64,000 nt of DNA from Tessaracoccus palaemonis (GTDB lineage Bacteria > Actinomycetota > Actinomycetes > Propionibacteriales > Propionibacteriaceae). Every line of letters starts with the position of its first letter. The stretch's first letter is position 1. A program made the position numbers and the translations under genes. The stretch lies in contig NZ_CP079216.1 in assembly GCF_019316905.1 (NCBI RefSeq), positions 434,001 through 498,000 of the forward strand, written 5' to 3'. Below are positions 50,226-53,088 of the stretch, one piece after another. The notes beneath the pieces are model-generated. The model made no database searches and was not told the DNA's origin. It saw only the letters and a list, made by a program, of their open reading frames with translations.

Positions 50226-51032
50226 ATGAGTGAGCGCCTGGCCCCCGACCGCGACGTCCCCGGCGCGTTCTGGGTCCGGTTCGGCCCCACCCAGCAGTCC
50301 TGGGTCGACCCGTCGCGCCCGGACTTCCTCGCCTTCGAGTACGTCCAGCACATCGCGATGGTGCTCGACCACACCGTGCTCGACACGCCCGCCGACCAGC
50401 GGCTGCGGATCGTGCACATCGGCGGCGCGGGCATGTCGCTGCCCCGCTGGGTGGCCTGGCGCCGCCCCGGCACCGCGCAGGTCGTGTGCGAGCCGGACGT
50501 CGAGCTGACCGCCGAGGTCCGGCGCAAGATCCCCCTGGCTCCCCGCTCGGGCATCAAGGTCCGCGACGTCGACGGCCGCGCGGGGCTGGCCGCGATGCCG
50601 GAGGCGTGGGCAGACGTCATCATCGTCGACGCGTTCGACGGCCCGAGCGTGCCGGGCGAACTCGCCACCGTCGAGTGCCTCGACCAGCTGCGCAGGGTGA
50701 GCCGCGGCGACGCCGTCGTCATCTACAACGTCACCGACCGGGCGCCGTTCGAGTGGACCAAGGGCCTGGCGGCAGGGCTGTCGGCCCGCTGGCGCAACCT
50801 CATCGTCGGCATGGAACCCGTCGTCATGAAGGGCAAACGCTTCGGCAACGTCGTCCTCGCGGCCAGCGACAAGCGGGCCGACACCGCCGCGATCGAGCGG
50901 GCCTCGGCCGGGCTGACGATCGGCTACCGCTGGATCGTCGGCGCACGGGCCCGCGACTGGCCGGGCGGCGCCGAGCCCATGACCGACGACGATGCGACCA
51001 CCTCGCCCGGCCCGCGCGGCCGCGGCTGGTAG
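50226..51032 (+). CDS. spermidine synthase-like SAM-fold protein
   Basis: 268 residues, ATG 50226. Rossmann core RLRIVHIGGAGMSLPRWVAW, acidic VVCEPDVELTAEV and WADVIIVDAFDGPSVPGEL match polyamine aminopropyltransferase-like proteins (fused-MFS or stand-alone actinobacterial type). TAGGGT ends 7 bases before the ATG (leaderless). Whether it makes polyamine or methylates something is uncertain. Confidence 0.82.
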   Translation: MSERLAPDRDVPGAFWVRFGPTQQSWVDPSRPDFLAFEYVQHIAMVLDHTVLDTPADQRLRIVHIGGAGMSLPRWVAWRRPGTAQVVCEPDVELTAEVRRKIPLAPRSGIKVRDVDGRAGLAAMPEAWADVIIVDAFDGPSVPGELATVECLDQLRRVSRGDAVVIYNVTDRAPFEWTKGLAAGLSARWRNLIVGMEPVVMKGKRFGNVVLAASDKRADTAAIERASAGLTIGYRWIVGARARDWPGGAEPMTDDDATTSPGPRGRGW

Positions 51033-51074: not shown

Positions 51075-51749
51075 GTGCAGGCGAAGAAGAAGACCGGGAA
51101 GCGGGGCACCTCCCCGCTGGCGGTGTTCCTCATCGCCCTGGTGATCGCCGCCCTCTCGCTCGGCGGCTGGATCGCCTGGAGCTACTGGGGCAGCAACGTG
51201 CTCGCCCAGCGGGCCGCGGCCGACGAACTCGCCGGCGTGCAGACGGCCATCGCCGAGGCGACGCCGACCGCCATCGAGACCGACGGGGCCCCCGAGGTCG
51301 CCCACCCCGCCATCGGAACCGCGGCCTGGATCGTGCGCATCCCCGCCATCGGCCTGGAGGCGCCCGTCATCGCCGGCGTCGAGCCCTCCGACCTGAACCG
51401 CGGGCTCGGCTGGTACCCGGGCACGTCGCTGCCCGGCCAGGCGGGCAACTTCGCGCTGGCCGGAAACCGTGTCACCGGCGGGGCCTTCCTGCGCGACGTC
51501 ATGAGCCTGGCCGTCGGCGACCAGGTGATCATCGAGACGCCCGAGGCGACATTCACGTACACGCTCACCGTCGCCCCCGCGGACCTCACGGTCGCATCCG
51601 ACGACTCGTGGGTCCTCGACCCCGTGCCCGGCCACGTCGACGTCGTGCCGACGCAGGCCTTCCTGACCCTGACCACCGCCGAAGACCTCGTGCCCACGGG
51701 CGACCGCTCCGTGGGCTTCGGCACCCTGACGAAGACGGAGACGCCATGA
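51075..51749 (+). CDS. sortase-fold protein lacking catalytic His and Cys (probable pseudosortase)
   Basis: 224 residues, GTG 51075. One N-terminal membrane anchor (residues 14-36), then a class E/D-like sortase barrel (IVRIPAIGLEAPVIAGVEPSDL, GWYPGTSLPGQAGNFALAGN). The usual catalytic AGHR is AGNR here (Asn131), and TLTTC is TLTTA (Ala202); Arg211 remains in GDRSVGFG. It therefore cannot work as a normal transpeptidase. Its stop overlaps the pyrE start (ATGA). Possible role: binding sorting signals or a structural envelope role. Confidence 0.8.
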   Translation: MQAKKKTGKRGTSPLAVFLIALVIAALSLGGWIAWSYWGSNVLAQRAAADELAGVQTAIAEATPTAIETDGAPEVAHPAIGTAAWIVRIPAIGLEAPVIAGVEPSDLNRGLGWYPGTSLPGQAGNFALAGNRVTGGAFLRDVMSLAVGDQVIIETPEATFTYTLTVAPADLTVASDDSWVLDPVPGHVDVVPTQAFLTLTTAEDLVPTGDRSVGFGTLTKTETP

Positions 51750-52285
51750 CCGACCGCACCGAACTCATCTCGCACATCGGGAACCTCGCCGTCGTCCGCG
51801 GCAAGGTCACCCTCTCCTCCGGCAAGGAGGCCGACTACTACGTCGACATGCGCCGCGTGACGCTCGACGGCGTCGCGTCGCCCATCGTCGGGCGCGTCAT
51901 GAACGAGCTCGTCGCCGACCTCGACTTCGACGCCGTCGGCGGCCTGACGCTCGGCGCCGACCCCGTCGCCACCGCCATGCTGCACGCGAAGGCGGCCTCG
52001 GGCGGGCGACTCGACGTCTTCGTCGTGCGCAAGGAGGCGAAGGCGCACGGGCTCCAGCGCCGCATCGAGGGCACCGACGTCGCCGGCCGCCGTGTGCTGG
52101 TCGTCGAGGACACCTCCACGACTGGCGGCTCGGCGCTGACCGCGGTCGAGGCCGTCCGCGAGGCCGGCGGCACCGTCGTCGCCGTCGCCGTGGTCGTCGA
52201 CCGCGCCACCGGCGCCGCCGAGCGCGTCGCGGAGGCGGGGCTGGAGTACCGCTTCGCCGTCGGTCTGGAGGACCTCGGGCTCTAG
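51746..52285 (+). CDS. pyrE: orotate phosphoribosyltransferase
   Basis: 179 residues, ATG 51746. Pyrimidine biosynthesis: orotate + PRPP to OMP. Orotate-loop GKVTLSSGKEADYYVDMR and PRPP motif VLVVEDTSTTGGSALTAV are intact. Translation is probably coupled to the upstream sortase-like gene through an ATGA overlap. Confidence 0.96.
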   Translation: MTDRTELISHIGNLAVVRGKVTLSSGKEADYYVDMRRVTLDGVASPIVGRVMNELVADLDFDAVGGLTLGADPVATAMLHAKAASGGRLDVFVVRKEAKAHGLQRRIEGTDVAGRRVLVVEDTSTTGGSALTAVEAVREAGGTVVAVAVVVDRATGAAERVAEAGLEYRFAVGLEDLGL

Positions 52286-52362
52286 CAACCGACTGCCGAC
52301 ATGGCCTTTTGACGGACGGCCGCGTCGACTACCGTGAAGGGCGACCTACTAGGAGGCCAACC

Positions 52363-53088
52363 GTGATCGCCCTCATCATCGTTCTCGTCGTCATCGTCGG
52401 CATCATCGCCTGGGGCGTCGGCTCGTACAACTCGTTCGTGCGCGCCCGCAACGTCATCCAGGAGTCGTGGCGTCAGATCGACGTCGAACTCAACCGCCGC
52501 TACGACCTGATCCCGAACCTGGTCGAGACCGTGCGCGGCTACGCGGCCCACGAGCGCAACACGCTCGAGCAGATCACCGCGCTGCGCAACCAGGCCCGCC
52601 AGCTCGCGGCGTCCGCGCAGGGCGCCCCGACGCAGGAGCGCGCCGCGGTCGAGCAGGAGCTGACGCAGGCCGTGCACGGCCTCATGGTCTCGGTCGAGGC
52701 CTACCCCGACCTGAAGTCCAACACCAACTTCCTCGAGCTGCAGCGCGAGCTGACCGACACCGAGGACCGCATCGCCGCCGCGCGCCGCTTCTACAACGCC
52801 AATGTGCGCGAGTACAACACCAAGATCGACTCGGTGCCCACCAACGTCATCGCGGGCTTCGCCAAGTTCGAGAAGGCCACCTACTTCGAGGTCAACGACC
52901 CGGCCGTGCGTCAGGCCCCCGGCGTGAACTTCGGCGAGATCTCGCAGCGGCCCGCTGGCTCGGCCGAGCCGCAGCAGCTGCCGACCAACACCCAGCAGCC
53001 CCCCGTGCAGCCGCCGTCGGCGACCCCGCAGATCTCCACGGACCCGTTCGCGCAGGAGAACCAGAACAAGGGTCCGTTCCAGGGCTGA
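52363..53088 (+). CDS. lemA: LemA family membrane protein
   Basis: 241 residues, GTG 52363 chosen because AGGAGG lies six bases upstream; an earlier in-frame ATG at 52309 has no site. One N-terminal membrane helix (IALIIVLVVIVGIIAWGVG), then the LemA helical domain (SWRQIDVELNRRYDLIPNLV, PDLKSNTNFLELQRELTDTE) and a disordered Pro/Gln tail. Role unknown; often with metalloprotease or TPM genes, which are absent here. Confidence 0.93.
   Translation: MIALIIVLVVIVGIIAWGVGSYNSFVRARNVIQESWRQIDVELNRRYDLIPNLVETVRGYAAHERNTLEQITALRNQARQLAASAQGAPTQERAAVEQELTQAVHGLMVSVEAYPDLKSNTNFLELQRELTDTEDRIAAARRFYNANVREYNTKIDSVPTNVIAGFAKFEKATYFEVNDPAVRQAPGVNFGEISQRPAGSAEPQQLPTNTQQPPVQPPSATPQISTDPFAQENQNKGPFQG

Follow-up and report, generated by a model that had tools for sequence, protein, structure and literature searches.

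Sortases normally staple proteins to the bacterial cell wall; they serve as drug targets and as protein-ligation tools, and annotated sortases are generally assumed to be transpeptidases. The window analysed here, a stretch of 64,000 nucleotides of the Tessaracoccus palaemonis genome, carries just before pyrE a gene for a sortase-like protein devoid of both the catalytic histidine and the catalytic cysteine. Is such a gene on its way out, does it still encode an enzyme of another kind, or has its product been kept for something other than catalysis? It is very probable that the window protein is non-catalytic and under selection, and we give a probability of about 0.6 to reading it as a pseudo-sortase of a kind that arose repeatedly and persists for binding, not catalysis, with a putative ligand.

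Fold and active site of the window protein

The reading frame runs uninterrupted from a GTG at 51075 to a TGA ending at 51749 and encodes 224 amino acids (Table 1). Its product matches the Pfam Sortase family PF04203 (E 8.4e-19; score 68 bits, cut-off 26.6). The AlphaFold model, obtained from an input alignment with 37 class E relatives, has a mean pLDDT of 88.9. Among solved structures it comes closest to 5go5, the Streptomyces avermitilis sortase E, with a TM-score of 0.86 on the target and a Z of 23.1 (140 residues, rmsd 1.7). The protein thus belongs to the sortase beta-barrel fold, with class E as the nearest class, and its N-terminal hydrophobic helix is predicted to anchor it in the membrane. 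With 140.2 bits it falls below the cut-off of 160 of the NCBIfam class E model NF033747, for which five intact relatives score 183-225 and five dead ones, lacking catalytic residues, 111-166, one of them above the cut-off. It is not a class F sortase, scoring 19.7 bits with NF033748 (cut-off 166).

Table 1. Coordinates of the features discussed; positions are those of the window, except those prefixed G000:C1, which refer to the window genome (G000)
Feature	Position	Strand	Basis
Spermidine-synthase-like gene upstream, conserved genus neighbour	50226..51032	+	NF037959, 66.6 bits
Pseudo-sortase gene, class-E-derived, N131/A202/R211, no cysteine	51075..51749	+	sequence, alignment, model
Predicted membrane anchor, N-terminal hydrophobic stretch, ~residues 14-36, within modelled helix 14-61	51114..51182	+	sequence and model
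Codon 131, AAC, Asn at the catalytic-His position of sortases	51465..51467	+	sequence and alignment
Codon 202, GCC, Ala at the catalytic-Cys position of sortases	51678..51680	+	sequence and alignment
Codon 211, CGC, conserved active-site Arg	51705..51707	+	sequence and alignment
pyrE, orotate phosphoribosyltransferase	51746..52285	+	TIGR00336, 130.8 bits (cut-off 106.8)
LPxAG-type tail (L253)	G000:C1:180413-180526		
LPxAG-type tail (L254)	G000:C1:403689-403802		
LPxAG-type tail (L255)	G000:C1:2694984-2695091		

Asn131, Ala202 and Arg211 line up with the sortase E residues His, Cys and Arg, both in solved structures and in a 147-row family alignment; the reference motifs at the first two sites are AG[H]RVT and TLTT[C]. 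Misalignment was rejected as an explanation, the flanks of these motifs being free of gaps, and so was a sequencing error, since a second species (G021), whose protein is 94% identical, carries the same Asn/Ala/Arg. The window protein contains no cysteine over its whole length and therefore no sortase-type nucleophile is possible; having neither this residue nor the catalytic His, it cannot, judged from its sequence, act as a cysteine transpeptidase. Two further class E residues are kept: aligned to SrtE1 of S. coelicolor, R211 corresponds to Arg329 and Y114 to Tyr229, both of which form hydrogen bonds to the sorting signal according to PMC5148588. The residues named in the preliminary description of this locus are confirmed, and its proposal of a sortase-fold pseudoenzyme with retained anchor and barrel, for which it had suggested a structure prediction as a check, is supported.

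Distribution of the loss and constraint on the remaining protein

An orthologue is present in 34 of the 39 species of the genus and absent from G002, G004, G005, G048 and G006; where these five genomes give sortase matches at all, the matches are weak and to other sortases. With an extra copy in G011, the genus contributes 35 rows, of which six have His/Cys/Arg and 29 are devoid of at least one triad residue, so that a strain-specific loss is rejected. The states at positions 131/202 are N/A, Y/A, Y/G, P/S, L/H, L/E, R/E, N/E, R/H, R/N, H/A, H/D, H/Q, H/E, N/C, R/C, Q/C and Y/C, and the exact Asn131/Ala202 pair occurs in three rows only (the window genome, G021 and G020). The preliminary description had asked whether the two substitutions are conserved, and took a normal His and Cys in orthologues as a sign of loss in a single strain. 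The loss does recur far beyond one strain, but the exact pair is not conserved and the replacements vary; orthologues with the normal triad do exist, but the loss is not confined to a strain.

The same pattern extends to the family, where a search at E 1e-15 matched 159 of 197 genomes. Outside the genus, where 126 genomes matched, 103 places from 96 of them were retained, mostly the higher-scoring ones, the weaker remainder, largely from one genus, being omitted; together with the 35 genus rows and nine outgroup rows they form the 147-row alignment. Counts are based on 140 rows, after four g15 rows (another paralogue) and three outgroup rows of family f3 were dropped; 68 of them are intact and the other 72 were classed as dead. 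By a strict count 71 of the 140 are without at least one of His, Cys and Arg, G043 being classed as dead although its triad is formally intact (it has Cys132 too). Essential residues are thus missing in more than one species, as expected of a pseudoenzyme, and dead members occur in 15 of the 27 sampled genera of the family.

On a quick tree of the 147 rows, with four sites excluded, the intact and dead states need at least seven changes, four of them forced by well-supported branches, and the best tree of 102 thinned rows under a mixture model needs five. A constraint that gathers all dead rows into a single clade is rejected (p-AU 0.00137). Most dead rows fall into one clade with a support of 95, which spans ten genera and counts 48 rows after thinning and 62 in the full set. 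In the quick tree, separate losses are found in g18, g21, g25 and g27 and, as a single row, in g13. The catalytic residues have been lost more than once, most simply by one ancient loss with several others after it.

Catalysis might nevertheless continue with new residues, for example Tyr131/Ser202/Arg211, which is seen more often than any other dead combination (12 rows out of 72), is spread over several genera and includes one apparently separate loss. Asn and Ala stand at these sites in the window protein, and Leu, Pro, Gly and Ala in its close relatives; no nucleophile is common to them, and 36 of the 72 dead rows are free of cysteine; we regard a new chemistry as very improbable. Most of the remaining dead rows contain cysteines in pairs. 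Apart from g25_G185, g25_G194 and g24_G071, the intact rows carry C202 as their one cysteine outside the membrane helix. C132 and C202 occur together in all nine genus rows that have either, the 21 others having neither, and C59 is paired with C156 in 15 of 15 cases. The association of C132 with C202 gives a Fisher p of 7e-8 with kinship ignored; an independent-pairs test had too few pairs, with one on starred branches. The natural reading is that these pairs are putative structural disulfides newly allowed by the loss, the C132/C202 pair perhaps being built on the former nucleophile.

If the family members were not enzymes any more, their constraint could simply be weakening: catalysis would have become useless and the gene would linger through its operon and its start/stop overlap with pyrE, on the way out. 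The diversity of replacements at 131 and 202 would fit such a decay. The Nei-Gojobori dN/dS ratios speak against it: seven dead pairs more than 80% identical give 0.21 (window genome and G021), 0.21, 0.17, 0.30, 0.29, 0.23 and 0.20, equal to intact pairs of the same identity range (0.13-0.29). This purifying selection, a second mark of a pseudoenzyme, bears out, together with the open frame, the preliminary statement that the gene is not a decaying pseudogene. The decay is also opposed by internal stops in only three of the family-search matches listed, by the rise of cysteine pairs, by the retention of the orthologue across most of the genus, and by the invariance of G121, G124, N125, Y162, V184 and P185 in the 62 dead rows. 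Of 142 barrel positions, 202 and 131 rank first and second in the variability that 62 dead rows have gained over 68 intact ones, while Arg211 and Tyr114 each persist in 67 dead rows out of 72; Arg211 is replaced by Val in three species and by Ile or Leu in two more. The residues of the substrate groove were taken from those named in PMC5148588 and transferred manually to the alignment. With all columns considered, their conservation does not exceed that of other positions (permutation p 0.21; genus p 0.41). Among columns conserved in the intact enzymes they are better kept (p 0.049 and 0.016), in a subset picked after the first result.

The pyrE neighbourhood and the deletion of the gene

The stop of the pseudo-sortase gene overlaps the start of pyrE in an ATGA at 51746-51749, a coupling that had been thought unexpected and is not peculiar to the dead form. 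A pyrE gene in the same orientation lies downstream, at most 300 bases away, in 40 of the 68 intact and 51 of the 72 dead rows, 26 intact and 18 dead rows having no pyrE in the DNA stretch examined. The four-base overlap is also found in the intact genus members G013, G041 and G011b, and intact sortases adjoin pyrE in f2, a further family of this order, as well. Because triad-bearing orthologues share this neighbourhood, it must be ancestral, and the placement before pyrE is an inherited operon context, not evidence for a role in pyrimidine metabolism.

The spermidine-synthase-like gene is conserved in the genus upstream of the sortase or of pyrE; its product in the window (50226-51032) matches only the synthase half of a fused MFS/spermidine synthase family. 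Downstream of pyrE, a LemA-family gene (52309-53088; PF04011, 194 bits) is conserved in several relatives. In one genome (G044; L139, L140) the region is rearranged, with pyrE on another contig and the dead sortase gene and the spermidine-synthase-like gene adjoining in divergent orientation.

Three of the species devoid of the orthologue (G002, G004 and G005) have only 70-80 bases, and no sortase gene, separating the end of the spermidine-synthase-like gene from pyrE; the sortase gene is also missing from G048, where pyrE reads in two frames. The latter (G048:C1:2249973-2250510, in a single-contig genome) is either a real frameshift or an assembly error. In a tree of the neighbour genes these four species group together (97) inside a clade (100) with G010, G024, G046 and G018, and the first three of these have lost Arg211 too (triads R/H/V and R/N/V). 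This one clade hence holds a species without the catalytic His, then an Arg-less clade, then four gene-less species that keep pyrE, a stepwise erosion which is the best evidence for decay. The deletion of the sortase gene with pyrE kept also shows that the overlap is not what forces its retention elsewhere. Taken with the constraint on the dead members, decay is an unlikely account of the family.

A candidate binding role and comparison with known systems

The repeated loss of the catalytic residues in a protein maintained beside pyrE suggests binding rather than catalysis. On the most likely account, the membrane-anchored pseudo-sortase derives from a class E housekeeping sortase that the ancestor of the family had beside pyrE, and it may serve on the outer membrane face as a receptor devoid of catalysis. 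The old substrate groove would hold an extended peptide, a C-terminal sorting signal or something like it, uncut, and the held protein may be retained or chaperoned, or the remaining class F-like sortase modulated. Against this reading stand the unexceptional conservation of the groove over all columns, the species without Arg211 and the four relatives from which the gene has gone. That a groove without its Cys can hold a peptide is indicated by solved Cys-to-Ala sortases which, by their entry titles, have sorting peptides bound (7s4o, 7s51 and 8t8g). From this analogy, binding of a sorting-type peptide in the groove is a tentative proposal, with somewhat less than even chances.

The window genome offers candidate ligands in the form of three LPxAG-type tails on large surface-type proteins (Table 1), consisting of LPSAG or LPNAG, with Ala replacing Thr, a hydrophobic stretch and RRR or RRH. 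They end open frames of 589, 1816 and 3515 amino acids, the first of which matches the ice-binding-like adhesive domain PF20597. PF00746 gives no match above its cut-off in this genome. A search model built from the three tails gave two matches in G021 and none of that kind elsewhere among 16 genomes. PF00746 scores above the cut-off in 23 of the 39 genus genomes, with an LPxTG tail at 20 of the 29 loci scanned from that search; the contrast between LPxAG in the window genome and G021 and mostly LPxTG in relatives is suggestive only. A more speculative extension, which we hold with low confidence, is that the family repeatedly and independently turned its pyrE-linked class E sortase into a putative receptor of sorting signals, whose tails (here perhaps those of the three surface proteins) would be held uncut, so that anchoring by sortase would be replaced non-covalently or regulated, often with disulfide stabilisation after loss of the catalytic Cys.

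The dead protein could instead compete for sorting signals or pair with an active sortase, either class F-like as here or a class E paralogue elsewhere. A PF04203 search of the window genome returned one match and no second sortase. With the NCBIfam class F model, however, a further ORF that Pfam Sortase had missed came to light (G000:C1:2079637-2080029, L288), so that the idea of a genome without another sortase was rejected. We read its IHTY, IICW and DSRVFF motifs as the likely catalytic His, Cys and Arg; similar ORFs occur in each of the four other genomes tested (G021, G003, G019 and G051), and intact and dead class-E-type copies are found together in six genomes. With this intact-looking sortase in the genome, inhibition of a true sortase, raised in the preliminary description along with sorting-signal binding and a scaffold as putative roles, keeps some plausibility. 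Against it, no physical or genetic link joins the genes, the class-F-like ORF lying far off in the chromosome, and we consider modulation of an active sortase doubtful.

The binding protein that we favour would imply a second, non-catalytic job for the sortase fold, pointed to by repeated catalytic loss under continued selection, and the relatives provide a natural series (intact, His/Cys-free, Arg-free and deleted) for finding that job. For genome surveys, sortase counts based on domain matches include dead members and miss class F-like ones. The open-access papers searched, PMC5148588 and PMC13251363 among them, describe no sortase pseudoenzyme and no pyrE-linked class E sortase.

Among known systems, the class E sortases (S. 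avermitilis 5go5 and S. coelicolor SrtE1 5cuw) share with the window protein the fold, the N-terminal anchor, the Arg, the Tyr229 equivalent and the VLDPVP stretch of the S4-pocket loop, and intact orthologues occupy the same operon site; they differ in having the catalytic His and Cys, and the window protein scores under the cut-off of NF033747. The class F sortases have the sortase domain in common with it and one is encoded in the same genome, but the window protein is far below the cut-off of their model. The engineered S. pyogenes SrtA C208A and T. fusca SrtE C222A carry the Cys-to-Ala change seen at site 202. Presumably both keep their His, their entry names showing no change of it. The peptide complexes of SrtA C208A have been solved, as entry titles state, but these are laboratory mutants, unlike the natural window protein. 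A general parallel lies with pseudoenzymes such as the bacterial pseudokinases (PMC12599244), in which, as here, the fold is kept, the catalytic residues are gone and the protein is retained.
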